Made by a program: the position numbers and the translations under genes | The notes under the pieces: model-generated | Told to the model about the DNA's origin: nothing | Databases searched by the model: none | Seen by the model: the letters and a program-made list of their open reading frames with translations, nothing else | Source of the DNA: Bacteroidota bacterium | GTDB lineage: Bacteria; Bacteroidota; Bacteroidia; Bacteroidales; FEN-979 | DNA length: 64,000 nucleotides | Direction: 5' to 3' | NCBI GenBank assembly: GCA_026391835.1 | Contig: JAPLDF010000071.1 | Span: 1 to 64,000 of the forward strand | In this document: positions 52,607-64,000 of the stretch, in pieces | How the letters are laid out: each line of letters starts with the position of its first letter | Position numbering within the stretch: the first letter of the stretch is position 1

Positions 52607-55600
52607 TTATAAGTTGTCCTTATCGATCAGCCGATCGACCAAGTTTAAGAACACGGTGATGTCAATCGGTTTTGCCAGGTAGTCACGGGCGCCTGCATTT
52701 TTCAGCATCTCGATCTTCTCAGGAATGGCATCCGCACTGATAATGACCACCGGGATCGATCTCGTTAACGGTTCGGCCAGGAGGTTGGCCAGTACCTGCG
52801 TCCCGTGCAAATCGGGCAGGTCAAGGTCAAGCAGGATCAGGTCGGGCTGGTAGTCAATGGCAAAATCAAGCGCAAGTTCCCCGTACATGGTTGTAATCAA
52901 CCGAATTGAAGGGCGCTGGCTCCCGATGATTCCTTCAATCAATTCGGCATTCGGGATGTTGTCTTCGATGTGCAGAATGGTCCCGGTTTTTTCAATTGCT
53001 CCTGTTCCCGTTTTGGAGGCATCTTTGATTCCTTCGGCACCTGTTTGCTGACTTTCCGCCATGGGAAGTTCTACCCAGAACGTACTGCCTTCCCCTGGTA
53101 TACTTTCAACCCCGGTATGGCCGCCCATGGCTTCCATCAATTCCTTTACCAGTGTAAGTCCGAGCCCGGTACCCTCTGTCCCTGTTTTTTCTGCACCGAT
53201 CCGTTCAAACGGATGGAAAAGTTTTTCGATATCTTCCGGCTTGATTCCCAACCCGTTATCAATGATTGAAATTCTCACCATCGGTAGGCGCGGAGCAACA
53301 CCGGGGTTCAATGCAGTTTTTATGATGACCGATCCGCCTTCGCGGTTGTATTTTACTGCATTGTTGATCAGGTTGAGCAGTACCTGCCGCAGACGCTGCC
53401 GGTCGGCCATCACCGAAAATTCAATGGCTTGTGAATCATCAAATTCAAGTGTCTGAAGCCGCTGCATTGCATATGGATGAACAACATCAACCATCTCGGA
53501 AATAATCGCGTTGAGTTGTACATGTTCAAGTGCAAGTGTGAGCCGTCCCGCTTCGATTCGCGAAATATCGAGCACCTCATTGATCAGGTTGAGCAAATGT
53601 TTTCCGCTGTTTAAAATATGGTTCACCCCTTTCCTGTGCGACGGGATAAGTTCACCCATCCCCATCAGCTGGGCGAAGCCAAGAATTGAATTCATGGGCG
53701 TCCGCAACTCATGGCTCATGCGGGATATGAATTCGCTCTTTGCATGGTTTGCCTTTTCAGCTTCATTTCTCGCCCTGATAATTTCTGCTTCTGCCTGTTT
53801 ACGTTCAGTGATATCAACCATCATGGTAAGCAGGCAAAGATCTTTCCCAATGTAAACAGAATCAGCAGAAAACAGGCCGGTGATGTGCGAACCGTTTTTT
53901 TTCACAACCACTATTTCAATCTCCTTGACAGAGTTATTGCTTTTTAATTTTTCAATGATCATTTCTCTTGCACCTGTGTCGGCAAGTATTTCAAGTTCGG
54001 CAGAAGTTTTACTTAATACTTCGTTGCGGTTGTAGCCCAATGTTTTAAGAAATGTATCGTTTACATCAATATACCTGCCATCTTCGAAATCCGAAATGGC
54101 CATCAGGGCTGAATTAAAATGAAACGCTTTTGAAAATTTCTCTTCCGACAATTTGATCTTTGAGATATCCTTGCTCACACCAAAGATCACAGGTTTGCCA
54201 TCCCAGAACCCGGGTTTGACCCTGGTCTCAACAGGAATATGGCCACCCGATTTGTTCACCAGCGGCACTGGGCAAAAATCAGCAGTTCCTGCCAGCATCT
54301 CTCCCACGATCCTGCCGGCTTCATCCCTCCGTTCCGGGGGATGAACCATCAGCACCGACTGGCTCATCAGTTCATCCATCGAATACCCCAGCCTGCTCAA
54401 AACAGTCTCATTCGTATGAATTATATTTCCCTGCTCATCGAGGACAAACAGGAAATCATCAATGGTGTTGAAAAAAGTTTCGTAATTCCGCCGGGTCTGA
54501 TCCAGCAAAGTCTCCAGATCTTTCTGCCTGGTGATATCCCAGTTGGTACCGACCAGGTGCTCCGCCTTTCCTGAACTGTCGCGCTGGACGACGGCAAGCG
54601 CCCTGATATTGCGGACCGTACCATCGGGCCACAACACCCTGAATTCGGTATCAAACTCCTTTTCGCCCCGCAGGGCCATTTGAATTTCCAGGTCTCCCTG
54701 CACCCTGTCATCAGGGTGCAACCCTTCCTGCCACGCCTCGTAGGCACCACTGAATTTGTCCTTGGTCGTACCGTAAAGAGCAAACATCTGGTCGTCCCAT
54801 ATCAGGACATTATTTATCAGGTCAAAGTCCCATACCCCGACACCACCTATCCGTGCAGCCAATGCCAGCCGTGTAGAAACTTGTTTCAGGTCCTCCTCGG
54901 CCTGCTTGCGGTCGGTGATGTTGGTGATAAATCCATGCCAGAGCACAGAGCCGTCGGCTTCGCGCTGAGGCATCGCACTTCCCGATACCCAGTGCACCGT
55001 ACCGTCTTCAAATTTCACCCGGTATTCGTGCCGCCAGGGTGTCAGATCCAGTGCCGATGCACTGATAGAGGCCACAACACCATTGCGATCTTCAGGGTGA
55101 ATTTTGCTAAATACCGCAGACCCATCATTGGCAACAGTTTCAGGGCTCACCTGGTAAATTTCCCGGATACCTTCGCTGGCATATGGGAAACTGGAGGTGC
55201 CGTCGGGGCGCAGGCGGAACTGGTACACTACTCCAGGCACCTGGTCGGCAATTTTATGCAACCGGTCAAATGCCTCTGCCAGTGCATTCGCTGTCCTGCT
55301 GCTTTTTTTTATTTCATCCTGCAGCGTTTTGTTGGTTTCCGTAAGCTGGGCCGTCCGTTCATCAACCGTAAGGGCGAGGGTTGCATTCAGGTCGATAATC
55401 GCCTTCTCGGCCGCTTTGCGTTCGGTGATATCTTCTTCAATGGCAAGGAAATGAGAGATTTTTCCATTGGTGTCGATAATCGGGGAAATGGATGCGGAAA
55501 CCCAGTAGAATTCTCCATTTTTCTTTTTGTTGTGAAACTCCCCCTTCCACTCCTTTCCCGACTTGATGGTTTGATAGAGAATCGCATACTCTTCACTGGT

Positions 55601-58207
55601 TGTCTCGCCTGAACTAAAGATCCGGGGGTTGTTTTCCAGCAATTCTTCCTTTGTATAACCCGTCAGGGCCAGGACTTTATCATTGACATATTCGATTATT
55701 CCCGTAATTCCTGTTATATAGATCATGACAGGGCTTTGTTCAACAGCCCGGGAGAGTTTCCGCAGATTATCCTCTGCATTTTTAAGCCAGGTATAGTCTA
55801 CGTCCACGCCACGGTATCCGACCAGGTCGCCGTTTTCATCAAGGATGGGGATGCCATTGGTTTTAATGATCGCCTCTGAGCCATCCGGTTTGAGCATGTT
55901 GCCAACCAGGTTTGAAAAGTTCCCTTTTTTCCTGAACACTTCAAAGGCAGCTTCCCTGAATTGTTCCTGCTGATCCTTGGGATGCAGGTCATAAAAATGC
56001 AACTTGCCAATCATTTGTTCCGCCGTATATCCATACACCGAAAATGCCAGCGGGCTTACATAGGTATATAATCCAGCAGCATCGACTTCCCATACCACCT
56101 CCCGGCTTTGCTCCACCACCTGCCTGAAGCGCTCTTCACTTTTAACCAACTGGTTCTCGGCCAGTTTCCGGGCAGTAATGTCGATAAGCGTACCGGAGCC
56201 ACCCTCATAAATACCATTTTTGAACCTAGCCTTGGTTGATAACCTTACCCAGCGGGTTTCACCACTTTTTGCCTGGAGTTTATATTCATTCTCCAGCACC
56301 AGGTTTTCAGCAAGGTCCTCCAGCCTTTTTGAGAGAAAGTCAGCGGTCACCCCTACGAACTCAATGGAGTTTCTTCCGGTAATCTCGACGTCGGTATACC
56401 CCAGGATTCTTACGATGGTCGGGCTGATGTACTGTATAACACCCTGGTTATCTATTTCATAAATCACATCATTGATGTTTTCAACGAGATTCCTGTATTT
56501 CACTTCACTCTCGAACAGCGCTTTTTCTGCCAGCTTGCGCTTGGTGATGTCCCTGTATTTCCATAAATGACCATTGTAGGCATTGTCAAGATAAGTTGGT
56601 ATATAATCCCGTTCAAAATACCGTCCGTCGGCGAGTTCCAGTAAATCATTGAACACTGCTTTCTGATTGGTGAGAACTACATTGATGTCGGCAATGAACC
56701 GGTCAGGATTCTTAAAAAACATTTTACTTTGTTCCGCAGCACCTGAACAATCGGCACCGACCATCGTTTCAGGTGGTACCGGGATGCCAAACATATCGCA
56801 GAAAAGCTGGTTGGTCAATGCAATGTTGCGGTGTGCATCTTCGAGTAAAATCCCCTCATGCAAATTGATGATCAGGTTTGAAAGGATCGCTGTTTTATTC
56901 TTTAACCGCTCCTCTGTCCGACTGCGTTCTGTAACATCACGGACGACAAAGACCATGCCGGTGGGATTGCCCTCCGTGTCCCTGATAAGTTCCCCGTTTG
57001 CTTCAATGTCAATGATGCTTCCATCCCGTTGCAGTGCCTTGTACTCCGCCGGACCCGATAAAACCCCCTGGTGCATCCGGTTGATTTCAAATTCCGCCTT
57101 TTCCCTGTCGGAAGGAGCAATAAATTCAATTAAATTCCTGTTTACCAGTTGCTCATTTCGTTCATAACCAAACATGGAAACACCCACGGGTGAAGCCATG
57201 CGGATGGATCCGGCAAGATCAGTAATGGTGATATTATCGGGAGATGCATGTAAGATGGAACGATACAACGTCTCGCTCGTTTGCAGTTTGACCCCGGCTA
57301 TGATCTTTTCGGTAACGTCATTGATCAGGACATGCCGGGCACTCCTGCCATTAAAAACCAATGATTGCGAATTGATCTCAACAAATATGATATCCCCGTT
57401 TTTTTTTATATGCCGCCATTGACCTTTGGCATTGGGCATGTTCCGGGTTAGTTCAATGTCCTGCATCAGCGCAGGCAGGTCCTCCTCAGGCCGGATATCC
57501 CTGATGGTCATCGACAGGAATTCGTCTTTTGAGTAACCGTAGTGCTGTATGGCCGCCTCATTGACCTCGAGAAAAAACAAAGTTTCAAGATCATAAATGA
57601 CCATGGGCTGGGGATTATTTGTAAACAGCAGGTGATAGTTGTACCTGCTATCAGCCAGGGTTTCAGCTGCCAGTTTATCTGTGATATCATCCGCTGTGAG
57701 CAGGCAGCTCTCACCGTCCTTAGCAAGCGTTCCGGAAAGATGGACATTTACCTGCAGGTTTTGATTGACGCACAATGTCACTTCGCAGGTTTCCGTGCCA
57801 TGGCTGCTATATATGCGCGTAAGAAACTGATTAAAAATTGGTTTGGTCTCATTGGAAACAAAAAAGCCAAAGAGACTCCTTTTTAACTGGGCTTGTTTTT
57901 TACCAAGCATTTTCGCTCCGCAGTGGTTCAGCTCCATGATTTCACCATCACCGGAAAGTGTAAAATACCCTGACGGGGCAAAATCATACAATTCTGAATA
58001 TTTGTCGGCAGTCTCGCGGGCTTCAGCATGGGCATGAAGAAGTTCTTCGTGCTGCATTTCCAGTTCAATCTGGTGAATTTCAAGCTCATGAATGAGCTTG
58101 ATCGTTTCTGCTTTCGAATAAACGGTTTCCCTTGCAGGTCTCTCCTTAAATTGCTCCTCGGCCAATTGGCGCAATATAGCTGCGGAAGTTTGGTTACTCT
58201 TTTTCAT
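52607..58207 (-). CDS. Giant multi-PAS hybrid histidine kinase
   Basis: This 1866-residue cytosolic protein shows no transmembrane segments. After an N-terminal coiled coil (HELEIHQIELEMQHEELLHA), I count eleven PAS domains between about residues 70 and 1475, most ending in the PAC-type DITERK or DVTERS motif. A HisKA domain follows with His1499 in ISRMSHELRTPMNSI. The HATPase has NLINNAVKYN, DNGLGIKP and GTGLGLTLV. The C-terminal receiver has phosphoacceptor Asp1794 (LILLDLDLPD). PAS domains may bind haem, flavin or small ligands; none can be assigned by eye. It heads an operon with two smaller REC-kinases and is preceded by a 140-nt leader. Confidence 0.93.
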   Translation of the reverse strand: MKKSNQTSAAILRQLAEEQFKERPARETVYSKAETIKLIHELEIHQIELEMQHEELLHAHAEARETADKYSELYDFAPSGYFTLSGDGEIMELNHCGAKMLGKKQAQLKRSLFGFFVSNETKPIFNQFLTRIYSSHGTETCEVTLCVNQNLQVNVHLSGTLAKDGESCLLTADDITDKLAAETLADSRYNYHLLFTNNPQPMVIYDLETLFFLEVNEAAIQHYGYSKDEFLSMTIRDIRPEEDLPALMQDIELTRNMPNAKGQWRHIKKNGDIIFVEINSQSLVFNGRSARHVLINDVTEKIIAGVKLQTSETLYRSILHASPDNITITDLAGSIRMASPVGVSMFGYERNEQLVNRNLIEFIAPSDREKAEFEINRMHQGVLSGPAEYKALQRDGSIIDIEANGELIRDTEGNPTGMVFVVRDVTERSRTEERLKNKTAILSNLIINLHEGILLEDAHRNIALTNQLFCDMFGIPVPPETMVGADCSGAAEQSKMFFKNPDRFIADINVVLTNQKAVFNDLLELADGRYFERDYIPTYLDNAYNGHLWKYRDITKRKLAEKALFESEVKYRNLVENINDVIYEIDNQGVIQYISPTIVRILGYTDVEITGRNSIEFVGVTADFLSKRLEDLAENLVLENEYKLQAKSGETRWVRLSTKARFKNGIYEGGSGTLIDITARKLAENQLVKSEERFRQVVEQSREVVWEVDAAGLYTYVSPLAFSVYGYTAEQMIGKLHFYDLHPKDQQEQFREAAFEVFRKKGNFSNLVGNMLKPDGSEAIIKTNGIPILDENGDLVGYRGVDVDYTWLKNAEDNLRKLSRAVEQSPVMIYITGITGIIEYVNDKVLALTGYTKEELLENNPRIFSSGETTSEEYAILYQTIKSGKEWKGEFHNKKKNGEFYWVSASISPIIDTNGKISHFLAIEEDITERKAAEKAIIDLNATLALTVDERTAQLTETNKTLQDEIKKSSRTANALAEAFDRLHKIADQVPGVVYQFRLRPDGTSSFPYASEGIREIYQVSPETVANDGSAVFSKIHPEDRNGVVASISASALDLTPWRHEYRVKFEDGTVHWVSGSAMPQREADGSVLWHGFITNITDRKQAEEDLKQVSTRLALAARIGGVGVWDFDLINNVLIWDDQMFALYGTTKDKFSGAYEAWQEGLHPDDRVQGDLEIQMALRGEKEFDTEFRVLWPDGTVRNIRALAVVQRDSSGKAEHLVGTNWDITRQKDLETLLDQTRRNYETFFNTIDDFLFVLDEQGNIIHTNETVLSRLGYSMDELMSQSVLMVHPPERRDEAGRIVGEMLAGTADFCPVPLVNKSGGHIPVETRVKPGFWDGKPVIFGVSKDISKIKLSEEKFSKAFHFNSALMAISDFEDGRYIDVNDTFLKTLGYNRNEVLSKTSAELEILADTGAREMIIEKLKSNNSVKEIEIVVVKKNGSHITGLFSADSVYIGKDLCLLTMMVDITERKQAEAEIIRARNEAEKANHAKSEFISRMSHELRTPMNSILGFAQLMGMGELIPSHRKGVNHILNSGKHLLNLINEVLDISRIEAGRLTLALEHVQLNAIISEMVDVVHPYAMQRLQTLEFDDSQAIEFSVMADRQRLRQVLLNLINNAVKYNREGGSVIIKTALNPGVAPRLPMVRISIIDNGLGIKPEDIEKLFHPFERIGAEKTGTEGTGLGLTLVKELMEAMGGHTGVESIPGEGSTFWVELPMAESQQTGAEGIKDASKTGTGAIEKTGTILHIEDNIPNAELIEGIIGSQRPSIRLITTMYGELALDFAIDYQPDLILLDLDLPDLHGTQVLANLLAEPLTRSIPVVIISADAIPEKIEMLKNAGARDYLAKPIDITVFLNLVDRLIDKDNL

Positions 58208-58633: not shown

Positions 58634-58819
58634 TTAAAGTGACCCGATAATCTTGTGCAACTCGTCTTTTGTTTTCCCTAATTTGACTTGAAGTCTGCCA
58701 AACATTTCATCCTTTTTGCCTTCTTTGAACATCAGGTCATTGTCTGTCAAGACTGCGAATTTTTGCTTGAGTTTGCCTTTCTGCTCATTCCAGTTTCCTT
58801 TTACTTCGGTGGTATTCAT
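58634..58819 (-). CDS. CsbD-family stress protein
   Basis: This 61-residue hydrophilic protein matches the CsbD family. It begins [20 protein letters not shown] and continues with [19 protein letters not shown], the usual four-helix pattern. CsbD proteins are strongly induced by general or osmotic stress in many bacteria; their biochemical role is unknown. It is a single gene preceded by module A (58874-58948), which is shared with the operon upstream. Confidence 0.92.
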
Positions 58820-58873
58820 TTTGTTGGTTTTTTAAAATTCCCTCATCTGGGGGGGGACAGGTGTGAAAGTAAT

Positions 58874-58948
58874 TTCACCGTACAAAGGTCCGTCAACCCA
58901 TGGCAGAAAGCGTTACACAATTCCGTGGAATTGTTGCAACATTCACAC
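58874..58948 (-). promoter_or_regulatory. Conserved 75-bp upstream module A (csbD)
   Basis: Compared with module B (62429-62503), 52 of 75 bases are identical without any gap (counted by eye). Fixed blocks on the plus strand are TTCACCGTACAAAG, GTTACACAA (58912) and ATTCACAC (58941). A second repeat, GTTGCAAC (58933), is spaced exactly 21 bp from GTTACACA, two helical turns, suggesting a dimeric activator site. On the minus strand ACCTTTGTACGGTGAA is the probable promoter core. Confidence 0.75.
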
Positions 58949-58969
58949 CTTTTGAAATGTCCTGGGATT

Positions 58970-60232
58970 TTAAAAGTCGCTGATTTGCATATATACCATA
59001 ACCACAGCCGCAACTGTCATGAGAACAAGGGTGGCAAATCCAAGGATGTTCGATATTTTCCCGTTGGTATAATTGCCCATGATCTTCTTGTTGTTGGATA
59101 TATGCAGAATGATGGCGATCAGCACGGGGGCTGTGAGCCCATACAAAATGGCTGAATAGATCAGTGCCTTGATGGGCGAAAGGCCGATGTAATGCATCAG
59201 CAGCCCGAGTATCAGCGAAATGGCGATGATGACATAAAATGCCTTTGCCTTGTTGAATTTCTTGTCGAGCCCCTTCTCCCAGCCGAACGTTTCGGTGATG
59301 ATGTATGAGAGGGATCCACTCAAAACCGGGATGGCCAGGAAGCCGGTTCCGATCACACCCACAGCAAAAAGGAGGTACGCAAGATTGCCTGCCAAAGGTT
59401 TCAATGCCTGGGCGGCCTGTTCAACGGTATCGATCTGGTGAATCCCGCCATTAAACAGCACAGTCCCTGTGGTGAGGATGATAAAGAACATCACCAGGTT
59501 TGAAAACAGCATGCCGAAATCGACATCCTGCTTCATTTCGTGTATGATCCGCTTGTTCACGACGAGGTGCTTTTTCTTCAGCTTTATATCTTCGGAAACC
59601 ATGGTGGCCTGCCAGAAGAAAAGATAGGGCGAAATTGTTGTGCCAAGAATGGCTACCAGGATGCTGATAAAATTTTTGTCAAACCTGATTGTCGGAACAA
59701 ACGTGGCTTTTAATACCGCAAGCCAGTCCTGTTTGTATAAAAACGGGATGACCAGGTAAATTAACAGGAAGATGCAGAGGTATTTCAGGATGGAAGCAAT
59801 CCGCTGATACGGCAGGTAAATGATCAGCACCAGCAAAATCATGGTGAATGCAATGCTGAAATAGGTTGCGTGAATTGACGGGAACAGGAGATTCCCGACT
59901 GCGCCCATTCCTGCGATATCGGCGCCAATGTTCATGACGATGGCGGGGAAACTGAACAACAGCATCAGATACAGCACAGGTTTTGAATAATTTGTTTTCA
60001 GCGTACCTGCCAGTCCATGAGAAGTAACCAGACCTATTCTTGCACACATTTCCTGGATGGAGGCCATCAGCGGAAATGTGATCAGTGCCGTCCACAGCGT
60101 CGACAGTCCATATGCGGCGCCTGCCTGTGAATAGGTGGCAATTCCCGAAGGATCGTCATCGCTGGCGCCGGTTACCAATCCCGGCCCAAGTATTTTCCAG
60201 AATCGGAGAAGTTTGCCCGGATTTTTTTTCAT
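58970..60232 (-). CDS. Nramp-related metal transporter
   Basis: This 420-residue membrane protein has about eleven transmembrane helices of the Nramp fold. Helix 1 reads DDDPSGIATYSQAGA: the metal-ligand Asp27 of the family DPGN motif is kept, but the Asn position is changed (DPSG). Helix 6 reads TISPYLFFWQ, so the usual Met-Pro-His is Ser-Pro-Tyr (201-203). Loss of the Met ligand argues against typical manganese/iron selectivity and fits Nramp-related proteins with other ion preferences. Its ATG overlaps the stop of the preceding gene (ATGA), so it is translationally coupled. Confidence 0.88.
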   Translation of the reverse strand: MKKNPGKLLRFWKILGPGLVTGASDDDPSGIATYSQAGAAYGLSTLWTALITFPLMASIQEMCARIGLVTSHGLAGTLKTNYSKPVLYLMLLFSFPAIVMNIGADIAGMGAVGNLLFPSIHATYFSIAFTMILLVLIIYLPYQRIASILKYLCIFLLIYLVIPFLYKQDWLAVLKATFVPTIRFDKNFISILVAILGTTISPYLFFWQATMVSEDIKLKKKHLVVNKRIIHEMKQDVDFGMLFSNLVMFFIILTTGTVLFNGGIHQIDTVEQAAQALKPLAGNLAYLLFAVGVIGTGFLAIPVLSGSLSYIITETFGWEKGLDKKFNKAKAFYVIIAISLILGLLMHYIGLSPIKALIYSAILYGLTAPVLIAIILHISNNKKIMGNYTNGKISNILGFATLVLMTVAAVVMVYMQISDF

Positions 60233-60627
60233 GAAATTTGTATCCGGCCATTCGACTTGCCACGGATCATTTTCAGTAGCCTGTTTCCCAATGATTTGAC
60301 AGTCTCAGGGTTTTTGGCCACAAGGTCGACAATGCCAAACATCAATGCATTGCCGGCAAGTTTTTTAACCGGGTTCCTCGTTCCCCGTTCAAACACCAGT
60401 TTCGAGAGATAACCGGCAGCCAGGCCAACAGAGGTGTTGATGATGTTGTCTTTCAAATCGCGCGATGCCATGATTTCCCTGAATGTATTCAGGACCAGGT
60501 TCACCGGTTTTATGCTTTCGTATGCTATTAGAAAATGTTCTTTCAACACTTTTCCCTCTTCTGCCTGCCTGAACTCCAACCGCTCGATTGCGGCTCTCAG
60601 AGTGGTTTCTGAATTTATTTTTTCCAT
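60229..60627 (-). CDS. Small protein of unknown function in the stress operon
   Basis: From the ATG at 60627 (AAGGA Shine-Dalgarno just before) the product is 132 residues; an in-frame ATG at 60687 would overlap the upstream gene by 52 bp. The N-terminal half is helical and charged (EKINSETTLRAAIERLEFRQ). Around 60-85 there is a weakly hydrophobic segment (NIINTSVGLAAGYLSKLVFE). Its neighbours suggest a membrane-associated envelope-stress role; no family motif is recognised. Confidence 0.72.
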   Translation of the reverse strand: MEKINSETTLRAAIERLEFRQAEEGKVLKEHFLIAYESIKPVNLVLNTFREIMASRDLKDNIINTSVGLAAGYLSKLVFERGTRNPVKKLAGNALMFGIVDLVAKNPETVKSLGNRLLKMIRGKSNGRIQIS

Positions 60628-60635
60628 GATATCCT

Positions 60636-60977
60636 TTATTGAAGGGCCTGTGTAATGATTATGTCGCTCAATGGCTTCCTGATCCATTTATGAAGAAACA
60701 AATGCATCACGATCCCCGCAACCAGGTAAAATCCGGCCACAATAAAAAATCCGTAACAGGATTTTCCGAGCACCTCGCCGAGGTAAAGTGCGATGCCAAT
60801 GTTCAGAACAAGCGCGAACATGGCAAGCACAAGGATGACACTCAGCCGCGACACCAATGAGGTCAAAACAATGGAAGCCGTTTCCAGGGCTTTAAGTTTT
60901 GAAAGTTCGTAGGTTGTCAGGCCGTACAATTCAATTTTCTCAAACAATGTTTCAATATGGCTTGCCGTGGTTTCCAT
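60636..60977 (-). CDS. Holin-superfamily-like two-helix membrane protein
   Basis: From the ATG at 60977 the product is 113 residues. An N-terminal amphipathic helix (HIETLFEKIELYGLTTYELSKLKA) precedes two transmembrane hairpin helices separated by LGEVLGKSCYG and a short charged tail. This is the layout of phage-holin-superfamily / Actino_Holin-X proteins, which in chromosomes are stress-linked rather than lytic. It lies between the YtxH gene and the 132-residue protein. Confidence 0.78.
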   Translation of the reverse strand: METTASHIETLFEKIELYGLTTYELSKLKALETASIVLTSLVSRLSVILVLAMFALVLNIGIALYLGEVLGKSCYGFFIVAGFYLVAGIVMHLFLHKWIRKPLSDIIITQALQ

Positions 60978-61084
60978 GCTCTGTATTTTGAAATTAATAA
61001 TCGTGGTTTCAGCAAGAAGCAATATCCGTCGGAGGTTTCTCTTCGGGATATTGCCTGTTGTCTGCCTTGCAAATGTCAGTCCTG

Positions 61085-61372
61085 TTAAATCTTTCCTTTT
61101 GCGGAAGAGACAACTTCAGCTTCCATCTCTTCAATCTTGTGTTTCCCGTTTTTGACCATATGGCTGGCTTCGCCTCTCAGGCCATTAAATTTCTCAGTGA
61201 TGCTGCCGATCAAATCATTGTATTTATCTTCCAATTCATCAACATATGCATCTTTTTTCTGAGTGATTCTTCTCCGTGTTTTAGAACCTTTGGCGGGGGC
61301 AAATAAAATTCCCAACGCGGCTCCTGCGGCAACACCTGCCAGAACGCCTAAAAATACTTTTCCTGAACTCAT
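61085..61372 (-). CDS. YtxH-domain stress protein
   Basis: This 95-residue protein has an N-terminal glycine-rich transmembrane segment (FLGVLAGVAAGAALGILFAPAKGSKTRR), the YtxH hallmark, followed by a long amphipathic helix. YtxH proteins are general-stress membrane proteins of unknown function. It lies 33 bp downstream of the exported protein gene and shares the operon promoter at module B. Confidence 0.9.
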   Translation of the reverse strand: MSSGKVFLGVLAGVAAGAALGILFAPAKGSKTRRRITQKKDAYVDELEDKYNDLIGSITEKFNGLRGEASHMVKNGKHKIEEMEAEVVSSAKGKI

Positions 61373-61405
61373 GATTTTCGTTTTTAATTGTGATTATTAT
61401 AATTG

Positions 61406-61936
61406 CTATTTCCTCTTCTCTTTACCACCGCCTTTGTCGTGACCATGGCCCGAATTGTTCCCTTTAACATGGTCATCTCCGCGGTTTTCATAATTGCCAT
61501 GGTTTCCCGGGTTGTTTCCATGCGCATCATGACCTCCCTGGCCGCCGCTTCCCGGCCGCTCACCAATGGTCCGCTGCTTTGGTCCACGGTAACCTTTTCC
61601 ATATTTCATTTTGTGATCCTTGAAATGGATATAGGGAGCATTTCCATGGTAGTCGGGCATCACTACTTTATATCCGCCATACAGATCATAGTTACGGTAA
61701 CGGGATGGAAGTGAAGTCCTGTGTATCCATGCGGTTCCGTTAAAGTAAATAAACATCGACGAATGGACATCATAATAAGCCTCCACATCGGGCAGGTAAT
61801 AATAACTGACTCCCGAAAATCCGACCGGTCCCCACATGGGCGGTGATCCGATGTTGATGCTCATCGAAAACTGGGCATGCACTGCCCCGGCAAGGATCAA
61901 CATTATTCCTAACACGAATATTCTAAAAGCTTTCAT
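61406..61936 (-). CDS. Exported Tyr/Gly/His-rich protein of unknown function
   Basis: This 176-residue protein has a Sec signal ending GAVHAQ. Residues 30-110 are aromatic-rich (SYYYLPDVEAYYDVHSSMF and YRNYDLYGGYKVV). The last 55 residues form a low-complexity Gly/His/Asn/Asp/Lys-rich tail (GGHDAHGNNPGNHGNYENRG) that is probably disordered and could bind metal. No T9SS sorting domain. It is the second gene of the operon, 24 bp after the lipoprotein. Confidence 0.78.
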   Translation of the reverse strand: MKAFRIFVLGIMLILAGAVHAQFSMSINIGSPPMWGPVGFSGVSYYYLPDVEAYYDVHSSMFIYFNGTAWIHRTSLPSRYRNYDLYGGYKVVMPDYHGNAPYIHFKDHKMKYGKGYRGPKQRTIGERPGSGGQGGHDAHGNNPGNHGNYENRGDDHVKGNNSGHGHDKGGGKEKRK

Positions 61937-61960
61937 TTTGTTGTATTTATACCGTTCAGA

Positions 61961-62401
61961 CTATTTGACATTTTTCACAGTCAGATCTTTGAAGGCCTTG
62001 CCCATCTCGTCCATGTCGTGGCTAAATTCAACTTTGAAGACCAGCCATTTGTCTTTGCCTTCCTCTTTATAGTTTTCCATCTTCATTTTCATGTCGCTGT
62101 TCTTCTGTTCCAGTTCAGCGATCCTTTTATTGTAATCGGCCCTGGCTGCTCTTTTTTCATGGGCTATCCTGGCTTTAAATTCGGCAATGCTGGCTTCGTT
62201 GGCAGCAACCCTGCTGGCCGTTTCAGTCTTGTAACTGGCTATATCAGCCAGGTATTCCTTATTTGCCTGGGCCAGGTCCTTATTGGCCTCCACAACATTT
62301 TCCTGGGCGTTTTCCACCTTCTGGGATGGGGTATTGCAACCGGTCAAAATTGCACCGGCAATAAAGGTGCCTGCTGCAAGTGCCAAGATCGTTTTTTTCA
62401 T
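61961..62401 (-). CDS. Helical lipoprotein of unknown function
   Basis: From the ATG at 62401 the product is 146 residues. A lipoprotein signal ends ILTGC (Cys22). The mature part is almost entirely alpha-helical, with heptad-like Ala/Glu/Lys-rich segments (VVEANKDLAQANKEYLADI and RAARADYNKRIAELEQKNS), predicted as a coiled coil. This resembles small periplasmic coiled-coil lipoproteins. It is the first gene of the operon controlled by module B. Confidence 0.82.
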   Translation of the reverse strand: MKKTILALAAGTFIAGAILTGCNTPSQKVENAQENVVEANKDLAQANKEYLADIASYKTETASRVAANEASIAEFKARIAHEKRAARADYNKRIAELEQKNSDMKMKMENYKEEGKDKWLVFKVEFSHDMDEMGKAFKDLTVKNVK

Positions 62402-62428
62402 TTTATAAAATTTACCTGTGAATGAATT

Positions 62429-62503
62429 TTCACCATACAAAGTTGAGCCAATCCACACCCGGAAGTGTTACACAACTTTTGGAATATGTTACATGATTCA
62501 CAC
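62429..62503 (-). promoter_or_regulatory. Conserved 75-bp upstream module B (stress operon)
   Basis: Collinear with module A (58874-58948). Blocks on the plus strand are TTCACCATACAAAG, GTTACACAA (62467), GTTACATG (62488, 21 bp later) and ATTCACAC (62496). It lies 28 bp before the lipoprotein start. Equal spacing at all three blocks in both copies argues for a shared regulator and promoter. Confidence 0.75.
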
Positions 62504-62506
62504 ATT

Positions 62507-62571: not shown

Positions 62572-64000
62572 CTACTTGCTGACATAAAACTTCCTGACTA
62601 CTTTGTCCTGGTCGTTCATGAAGAGTACAAAGTACATTCCGGCGTTTGCAGTACGAAGGTCAACCTGGGTGCTGTATTTCCTGCCAATTGTCTTCACATC
62701 GCGCAGTTCGAACAACTTTTCACCAAGCTGGTTATAAATCATGATGGTGAAGATGTCATCCACAGTTGAATGAATTGATATTGCGAACTGCCCGTTGTTT
62801 GGCACAGGATAGATGTTAAACGATGATACCGACACCGGTTCAGGAGTACCAACCATTTCGATCCAGACCTTGTTGGAGATCTCCGATGAACAGCCGTTTG
62901 CAGAAACCATACACCAGTAACTTCCGGTATTATTTGTAACTGTATAGGTCGGGCCGGTTGCCCCGGCAATGAGATTGTCATTGTAAAACCACTGGTTGCC
63001 CGCAGATGAACTGCTGGTAAGCACATTGCCATACGCCGTGATGGCAGGGGCAGCAGGAATTGCATGTATCGTTACGGCCAAAGTTGCCCGGGGACCGTTT
63101 CCGCACTGGTTGAAACCTGCAACGGTAATATTCCCCGATACCGCTGAAACTCCAAAATCAACGATGATATTGGTGGTTCCTGCACCTGAAACAATAACCA
63201 CTCCTGATGGAACTACCCATGAATAAGATTCTGCTCCTGCAACAGGGGTTGTTGAATAAGCAACATCGCTGGTTCCGGCACAAACCGCTGAGGTTCCTGC
63301 AACAGCACCAGCACCGTCTGGAGCCTGGTTGACAAATAAGGTATATGTGAAGGGCAACAGTGCCGGACACCCTGAAACATTGGCATAGTTCACACTTACT
63401 GTCTGTGTTCCCGGCTGGGTCCAGGTGACATTGAGTGTACTGGTACCCTGACCTGAAGCAATCGTTCCTCCTGGTGAAACTGTCCACACGTAACCACTCA
63501 TTCCGCTTTCGGTGTAATAAATGTTGTTTGCTGATCCAAGGCAGGGATTGTTTGTACTTCCGATGGTGGGAGCAGGCAAAGTACTTACAGTGAGCGAAAC
63601 TGTCGCGGAGATTACAACTGGTAAAAAAGTCCCGGTAACAACAACATTATAGTTTGATCCGGCATCAGGGATGCCAACAGGATTGATGGTAAGTGTCGCG
63701 GAATTTGCGCCTGAAATATTTCCACCGTTGGAAATGTTTAAAATCCCCCTTCTCCATCTGTAGGAAACACCTGTTCCCGTTGCCGCAACGGTAAAACTGG
63801 CTGAGCTGCCTGTACATACTGCCTGACTTGATGGCTGTGAATTAATAGATGGCGATGAAGTACCTCCGCAGCCTGCAGGCATGTTGGCAGTTATTGCAGT
63901 CGTACCTAAGGCGCCAGTGGTTGTGAAAGCCCTTCCCTCCAAAACAACACCTGTTTTTAAAAGGACCGCACCATTGTTGCATACAATCGTTCCCCTGAAA
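62572..64000 (-). CDS. Partial gene: DUF3494 (ice-binding-like) protein with Ig/PKD-like domains and T9SS sorting domain
   Basis: The frame is open to the right edge, so the 5' end is outside the window; 475 codons are visible. The first visible residues (FRGTIVCNNGAVLLKTG followed by LEGRAFTTTGAL) match the C-terminal end of the DUF3494 beta-helix found in ice-binding proteins. Next come about four Ig- or PKD-like domains (about 45-390), rich in Ser/Thr/Gly with conserved Trp and Tyr. The final 80 residues, FNIYPVPNNGQFAISI to the end, are a T9SS type A sorting domain. It is a secreted, probably surface-bound or adhesive protein. True ice-binding activity cannot be judged without the missing part. 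Confidence 0.85.
   Translation of the reverse strand, partial: FRGTIVCNNGAVLLKTGVVLEGRAFTTTGALGTTAITANMPAGCGGTSSPSINSQPSSQAVCTGSSASFTVAATGTGVSYRWRRGILNISNGGNISGANSATLTINPVGIPDAGSNYNVVVTGTFLPVVISATVSLTVSTLPAPTIGSTNNPCLGSANNIYYTESGMSGYVWTVSPGGTIASGQGTSTLNVTWTQPGTQTVSVNYANVSGCPALLPFTYTLFVNQAPDGAGAVAGTSAVCAGTSDVAYSTTPVAGAESYSWVVPSGVVIVSGAGTTNIIVDFGVSAVSGNITVAGFNQCGNGPRATLAVTIHAIPAAPAITAYGNVLTSSSSAGNQWFYNDNLIAGATGPTYTVTNNTGSYWCMVSANGCSSEISNKVWIEMVGTPEPVSVSSFNIYPVPNNGQFAISIHSTVDDIFTIMIYNQLGEKLFELRDVKTIGRKYSTQVDLRTANAGMYFVLFMNDQDKVVRKFYVSK

Follow-up and report, generated by a model that had tools for sequence, protein, structure and literature searches.

Two similar modules near the end of the window

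The 64,000-nucleotide stretch analysed here (the window; positions 1 to 64,000, forward strand, of contig JAPLDF010000071.1, C4 below, in the Bacteroidota assembly GCA_026391835.1 of the order Bacteroidales) carries near its end two similar modules: module A precedes csbD and module B precedes a presumed six-gene operon that ends in an Nramp transporter. In this study we describe an operator that these modules share with many other sites in this and related genomes, and we put forward a small AraC/XylS-family protein as its candidate regulator. That the sites form a shared regulon under one operator is, in our view, beyond reasonable doubt. The features of the locus are listed below; profile R1, named there, is the operator profile introduced in the next section.

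58905..58951, minus strand: module A operator, 47 bp, distal and proximal half-sites in direct repeat 21 bp apart, predicted to lie at -73 to -27; profile R1 match at C4:58906-58950, E=2.2e-8 (site in the training set)
58883..58890, minus strand: module A -7-like box GACCTTTG, from the sequence and the fixed TTTG offset
58863..58878, minus strand: module A dyad GTGAAATTACTTTCAC, predicted transcript start ~58878
62460..62506, minus strand: module B operator, structure as in module A; profile R1 match at C4:62461-62506, E=3.3e-12 (site in the training set)
62438..62445, minus strand: module B -7-like box CAACTTTG, from the sequence and the fixed offset
62418..62433, minus strand: module B dyad GTGAAAATTCATTCAC, predicted transcript start ~62433
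58634..58819, minus strand: csbD, presumed target of module A (PF05532, E=1.8e-14)
61961..62401, minus strand: lipoprotein (sll1863 stress-response family) whose gene opens the presumed module B operon (NF052504, 43.1 bits, cut-off 35)
61406..61936, minus strand: second operon gene, secreted protein (no Pfam or NCBIfam match)
61085..61372, minus strand: ytxH (PF12732, E=1.8e-16)
60636..60992, minus strand: membrane protein of small size that by eye resembles a holin (its cluster recurs in 9 of 20 loci; no Pfam match)
60229..60687, minus strand: 152-amino-acid protein (cluster in 9 of 20 loci; no Pfam match)
58970..60232, minus strand: Nramp-family metal transporter, last gene of the presumed operon (PF01566, E=6.7e-76)
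62572..64000, minus strand: 3' part of a gene for a surface protein of ice-binding-like (DUF3494) type (the complete gene, L051:11379-14000, matches PF11999 with E=2.3e-69)

The modules lie 3.6 kb apart and are 69% identical. A preliminary description of this stretch had counted 52 identities over 75 ungapped positions, and the recount gives exactly that number. The three blocks that it distinguished start at 58874, 58912 and 58941 in module A and at 62429, 62467 and 62496 in module B and keep spacings of 38 and 29 bp in both, and the GTTRCA word that it placed 21 bp from the GTTACACA block is found at that distance in each (58933 and 62488). The blocks and their spacing are thus exact, but the extent of 75 bp given there was too short: the element runs from ~58863 to 58951 (A) and from ~62418 to 62506 (B), the additional sequence being the dyad, which lies past the -7 box, and a small number of operator bases. 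Since the genes downstream of both modules lie on the minus strand, the element is best read in that direction, as GTGTGAATnnTGYAACA... followed by TTGTGTAACRCTT, with TTGTGTAAC and CTTTGTAYGGTGAAA separated by 24 bp.

When the best ungapped 75-bp pair was scored for every same-strand shift of at least 75 across the whole window, among same-strand pairs only two shifts, with scores of 58 and 56 (of 75), exceeded the module pair. These strongest self-matches, 38619/38699 (56) and 50882/52179 (58), are possibly coding repeats.

The operator in the genome, the order and the phylum

A simple pattern allowed 3 mismatches finds only modules A and B in the window's genome and would by itself suggest a local pair. 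Across the order the same pattern is noisy, with matches in 65 of 393 genomes compared with ~30 genomes for the reversed control, and counts were therefore made with a profile. Profile R1 covers 47 bp of the operator and was built from 62 sites of relatives and of the window's own contig, all within 5 mismatches of a 34-position pattern and aligned without gaps; four are from the window's genome.

The genome-wide motif search proposed in the preliminary description, run with this profile, yields 35 matches at E≤0.003 on 11 contigs of the window's genome (14 on C12, six on C4, four on C84, three on C41, two on C43 and one on each of six others); four of the 35 are training sites. The apparent pairing of A and B is therefore a matter of threshold, and the regulon is not "local", as had been claimed. 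Four of the six sites on C4 lie just past the end of the window, at 65265, 67328 and 70872 (all on the minus strand) and at 70982 (plus strand), and the first of these (E=8.9e-9) gives the ice-binding-like gene at the window end a module of its own. The four copies stand before ice-binding-like and DUF6600 genes, and the opposite-strand copy at 70982 matches 35 of 47 positions.

In the order the profile matches 109 of 393 genomes (E≤0.001); no more than 15 motif candidates and 8 AraC candidates per genome were scored, so that the number of sites counted in each genome has an upper limit and weak matches can be lost. In a sample of the phylum, 23 of 296 genomes match at E≤1e-4. The blocks and their spacing are conserved in related genomes, one of the points on which the preliminary description had staked its proposal of a shared regulon with a dedicated regulator, and that proposal is strongly supported. 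A survey of titles and abstract openings in the open-access literature, with few subscription papers and no preprints, returned no description of such a regulon.

Architecture of the sites

To describe the element we used 72 fetched loci (1.06 Mb, including one 100-base entry, L152), in which the operator matrix finds 243 sites and the reversed profile none; the loci were chosen mainly for site clusters, and 70 of them hold a site. Over these sites the operator consists of two half-sites of ~18 bp in direct repeat, with consensus AATGATGTAACTTTTTTC and AATTGTGTAACACTTTCC 21 bp apart, and its autocorrelation is highest at a 21-bp shift. The letters conserved across sites are AATGTGTGAATgATGTAAcTttTttcnaaAaTTgTGTAAcactTt.

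Downstream of the operator, TTTG stands at one exact offset in 179 of the 243 sites, against ~2 at other offsets, within a -7 box of the form (T/C)A(C/T)CTTTG (A in 95%, TTT in 92-99%). Because CTTTGTA and GTGAA are part of the initial site-finding pattern, selection favours the -7 box and the dyad's left arm. A separate count was therefore made of the 139 sites that fall outside the training definition; TTTG occupies the offset in 81 of them and A..TTT in 115. Of the 33 matrix sites in the window's own genome, 28 carry both A and TTT at the box positions. A study of Flavobacterium psychrophilum places the sigma-A box TAnnTTTG at -12 to -5 (PMC9723704). With that position applied, the predicted start is the G of GTGAA and the half-sites fall at ~-65 to -27, where the -33 element would be. 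Because the half-sites occupy the -33 region beside a sigma-A-like -7 box, each module is most simply read as a sigma-A promoter that would depend on an upstream activator.

The dyad GTGAA-N6-TTCAC at the predicted transcript start is present, with at most 2 mismatches, at 73 of the 243 sites and at 1 of 243 in the stretch 50 bp further on; the left arm, GTGAA, belongs to the site-finding pattern and the right arm, TTCAC, does not. Its frequency depends on the target, from 30 of 40 ice-binding, 12 of 29 CsbD and 5 of 11 sll1863-type sites to 1 of 15 AraC, 1 of 10 lmo0937 and 0 of 12 OmpA-like sites, and the window's genome has it at 5 of 33 sites, of which four are on C4. At several sites both arms differ from the consensus and still pair (GTGAG/CTCAC, CTGAA/TTCAG, ATGAA/TTCAT), and the one-sided changes are only mildly asymmetric. 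The module B dyad gives a 5' terminal stem-loop with a stem of 5 bp; folding of the single sequences yields weak structures in both modules (z = -0.99 each). The dyad may act either as a stem-loop at the 5' end of the transcript or as a site for a second protein.

Genes behind the operator

An open reading frame of at least 50 codons starts within ~260 bp of the -7 region at 231 of the 243 sites, a plain count rather than one set against random positions. The first genes encode ice-binding-like proteins (40), CsbD (29), the AraC protein discussed below (15), OmpA-like proteins (12, by eye), sll1863 lipoproteins (11) and lmo0937 small membrane proteins (10); the others fall into 68 smaller clusters, among them (by eye) Mla-transporter, BON/OsmY, YihY, UspA, Dps, YtxH and cupin proteins. 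A protein similar by eye to the second gene of the module B operon is the first gene at 4 of the 231 sites. In a comparison of 10 proteins with NCBIfam, matches that satisfied the curated cut-off were obtained for the sll1863 and lmo0937 families alone. The targets look like a gene set resembling general stress and envelope protection, many of the labels having been given by eye. As in a general stress regulon, many dispersed stress-protection genes stand behind one control sequence, with 35 sites in one genome.

Short acidic proteins of ~60 to 120 amino acids are encoded directly behind operators in several loci (for example L037:11971, L044:8977 and L125:8707).

A small AraC/XylS-family protein as candidate regulator

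Eight of the first 20 fetched loci encode a 178-amino-acid protein of the AraC/XylS family, and 30 of the 72 loci encode its subfamily. Among the gene clusters common to at least 5 of the 20 loci it alone was recognised as DNA-binding (labels by eye, with Pfam on part). Its C-terminal part is an AraC domain with two helix-turn-helix (HTH) motifs (HTH_18, E=1.2e-15 in the own-genome protein L085), and a structural model of its relative L187, from Emticicia sp. C21, matches AraC, MarA and Rob chains in Foldseek, the top hits being AraC DNA-binding domains. Sequence matches in the PDB are confined to residues 70-169. The N-terminal ~85 residues form a helix-strand-strand-helix block, modelled with a predicted local distance difference test score (pLDDT) of 71-91, that has no clear match of its own. 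Direct repeats in a 21-bp geometry near -35 fit AraC/XylS regulators, and the operator has the two direct half-sites ~21 bp apart at the -35 region that such a regulator leads one to expect.

The window's genome holds two close copies of the gene. Upstream of the first (C12:14067-14600) lies a weak operator (C12:13854, E=0.002), and downstream of this gene come those for a kinase and a receiver protein, while the second (C12:42906-43439) overlaps the best-matching operator of the genome (C12:42863, E=1.7e-13). Records with the protein come from several orders and include Emticicia, Terrimonas, Niastella, Dyadobacter, Arcicella, Runella, Aquimarina, Flavobacterium and Fulvivirga (some of them metagenome-assembled genomes), and the operator is found in the loci of all these genera except Dyadobacter; it is weak in Fulvivirga and present in 2 of 3 Aquimarina loci.

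A contig labelled as an uncultured Legionella metagenome-assembled genome (L224) also encodes a Bacteroidota-type AraC protein and is probably mis-binned.

Protein and operator occur together across genomes. In the order, 73 of 393 genomes encode the close subfamily (E≤1e-70), and the motif is present in 71 of these against 38 of the 320 others (Fisher p=3e-47); it is found in 21 of 100 genomes with weaker AraC homologues only and in 17 of 220 without any at E≤1e-30. In the phylum sample the motif is in 13 of 23 genomes with AraC at about E≤2e-80 and in 10 of 273 others (p=6e-11), values that become 12 of 22 and 10 of 273 (p=4e-10) when the window's genome is left out; at E≤1e-60 they are 15 of 47 and 8 of 249 (p=2e-8). 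Locus by locus, 26 of the 30 AraC loci hold the operator, compared with 0 in 150 shuffles; these 30 include some training sites (for example L065, L066 and L079). Of 80 loci fetched by the AraC protein sequence, at least 6 of the named records being the same contigs as genomes already used, 66 hold the operator and the reversed control gives 0.

Around the AraC gene itself the operator is placed in two distinct ways. It flanks the gene in 56 of the 80 loci (score limit 10). In 22 it lies upstream only, and in 21 of these the next gene encodes a PAS histidine kinase; in 33 it lies at the AraC stop codon only, with a kinase next in 1. It is in both places in 1 locus and in neither in 24, with a kinase next in 6 of the latter. 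The two classes (L085, L124 and loci L176-L255) are thus upstream with a kinase, or at the stop codon, and the AraC-kinase operon includes a stand-alone receiver protein in all five cases mapped. This placement fits an autoregulated AraC-kinase operon together with a second class that would pass control to the neighbouring gene.

PAS kinases also recur near operator islands, as a cluster in 10 of the 20 loci. Adjoining csbD in the window is a gene (52607-58207, minus strand) for an 1866-amino-acid hybrid protein that combines many PAS domains with HisKA, HATPase and, at its C-terminus, a receiver.

Taken together, these data lead us to propose that the modules are activator-dependent sigma-A promoters worked by this small AraC-type protein, an explanation that we regard, as a whole and on sequence grounds, as likely. 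The protein (178 amino acids: a ~85-residue alpha/beta N-terminal domain and the two-HTH AraC domain) would bind the two direct half-sites and, from ~-65 to -27, bring RNA polymerase to a -7 box that is weak by itself. This operator would have ~35 places of the genome under its control, along with similar stress and envelope genes across many other Bacteroidota, with stress as the putative signal. The regulator probably controls itself: one class of its genes would be autoregulated and head an operon with the PAS histidine kinase, which may feed into the AraC protein, and in the other the operator at the gene's own stop codon would drive the next gene. The AraC protein is likely to be the direct activator of the regulon.

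Several observations weigh against this proposal. Nine genomes have at least three sites and lack a close AraC homologue at E≤1e-70; five of these have only weaker homologues (9e-22 to 8e-66), and in the other four (G004, G046, G150 and G382) no AraC homologue was found at E≤1e-20. All nine are drafts of 30 to 660 contigs; G004 is 98% complete. Conversely, two AraC-positive genomes (G085 and G308) lack the motif, 10 of the 23 strong-AraC genomes of the phylum sample have no match at E≤1e-4, perhaps a consequence of training the profile on one order, and the 24 AraC loci mentioned above have no operator beside the gene. The AraC gene is absent from 42 of the 72 loci, which is expected for scattered targets and lends no support. 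In addition, the AraC cut-offs (1e-70 and 2e-80) were set after the lists had been seen, and the genomes are related, so that the p-values overstate independence.

Other readings of the operator

Some of these observations would suit a different arrangement, in which another DNA-binding protein recognises the operator and the AraC gene is merely one target. AraC genes are themselves targets (15 of 231 sites), and some genomes have sites without a close AraC protein. We think this improbable, however, given the strong co-occurrence of AraC and motif at the genome level, the suitability of 21-bp direct repeats near -35 for AraC proteins, and the standing of AraC as the only recognised DNA-binding cluster (by eye) among those in at least 5 of 20 loci.

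It is very unlikely that the modules are promoters of an alternative sigma factor, a suggestion of the preliminary description that the data do not call for. The boxes GACCTTTG and CAACTTTG are indeed not perfect copies of TAnnTTTG, but taken over all 243 sites it amounts to a variant sigma-A box with TTTG at its fixed offset, the conserved upstream words form direct repeats, and the element at -10/-12 is not distinct from the primary sigma box.

Less probable still is binding of the repeats by a LytTR response regulator, to whose geometry the preliminary description had pointed. LytTR regulators resemble the present system in having direct repeats ~21 bp apart, and the genome contains 13 LytTR matches. 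A profile of 12 own-genome domains, which recovers 12 of 12 when each is left out in turn, nevertheless finds no LytTR domain in the 72 fetched loci, 70 of which have sites, against 30 of 72 that encode the AraC subfamily. We therefore reject a site-linked LytTR regulator; the comparison covers linked genes only, an unlinked regulator being outside its reach.

Finally, although the two copies are 3.6 kb apart and 69% identical, a dispersed repeat or recent duplication without regulatory role has next to no probability, since operator, -7 box and often dyad recur at fixed spacing before unrelated genes.

Relation to known systems

The proposed AraC-dependent promoters resemble araBAD (araI1-I2) and Pm, where AraC/XylS proteins with a C-terminal two-HTH domain act at two direct half-sites 21 bp apart, the proximal one by -35. 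They differ in the half-site words, in the Bacteroidota -7 box and in having ~35 sites instead of a few; the protein described here has a short N-terminal alpha/beta domain rather than a sugar-binding cupin and, in one gene class, shares its operon with a kinase. The targets recall the sigma-B regulon of Bacillus and the sigma-S regulon of E. coli, which likewise include CsbD, YtxH, OsmY-like, Dps-like, UspA-like, OmpA-like and small membrane proteins (several of the labels here being by eye). In those systems a dedicated sigma factor is used, whereas here there is apparently a sigma-A promoter with an AraC-type activator, and induction by stress is putative.

We know of no sigma-B or sigma-S in Bacteroidota, and to our knowledge how these bacteria coordinate a general stress response is an open question. 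The present analysis offers a concrete operator, a candidate regulator with a kinase and ~35 control sites in one genome, and the question can be tested in relatives that are available in culture and have the operator in their AraC loci, for instance Emticicia, Niastella, Terrimonas and Arcicella. It also provides a regulatory context for ice-binding-like (DUF3494), CsbD, YtxH and sll1863-family genes. Whether the regulon is a true general stress response we leave as a tentative idea, somewhat short of an even chance. Equally speculative is the broader thought that much of free-living Bacteroidota might rely for its general stress switch on a small activator of the AraC type together with a PAS histidine kinase and a receiver protein, many transcripts starting with the same short stem-loop; such a system would be the transcription-factor counterpart of sigma-B and sigma-S.

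The promoter classes SM1-3 of F. psychrophilum have the same type of -7 box and are described as sigma motifs and not as AraC operators; neither AraC nor CsbD is mentioned in the main text of that study (PMC9723704). On plasmids, relatives at the DNA level comprise five records, which match the Nramp part.

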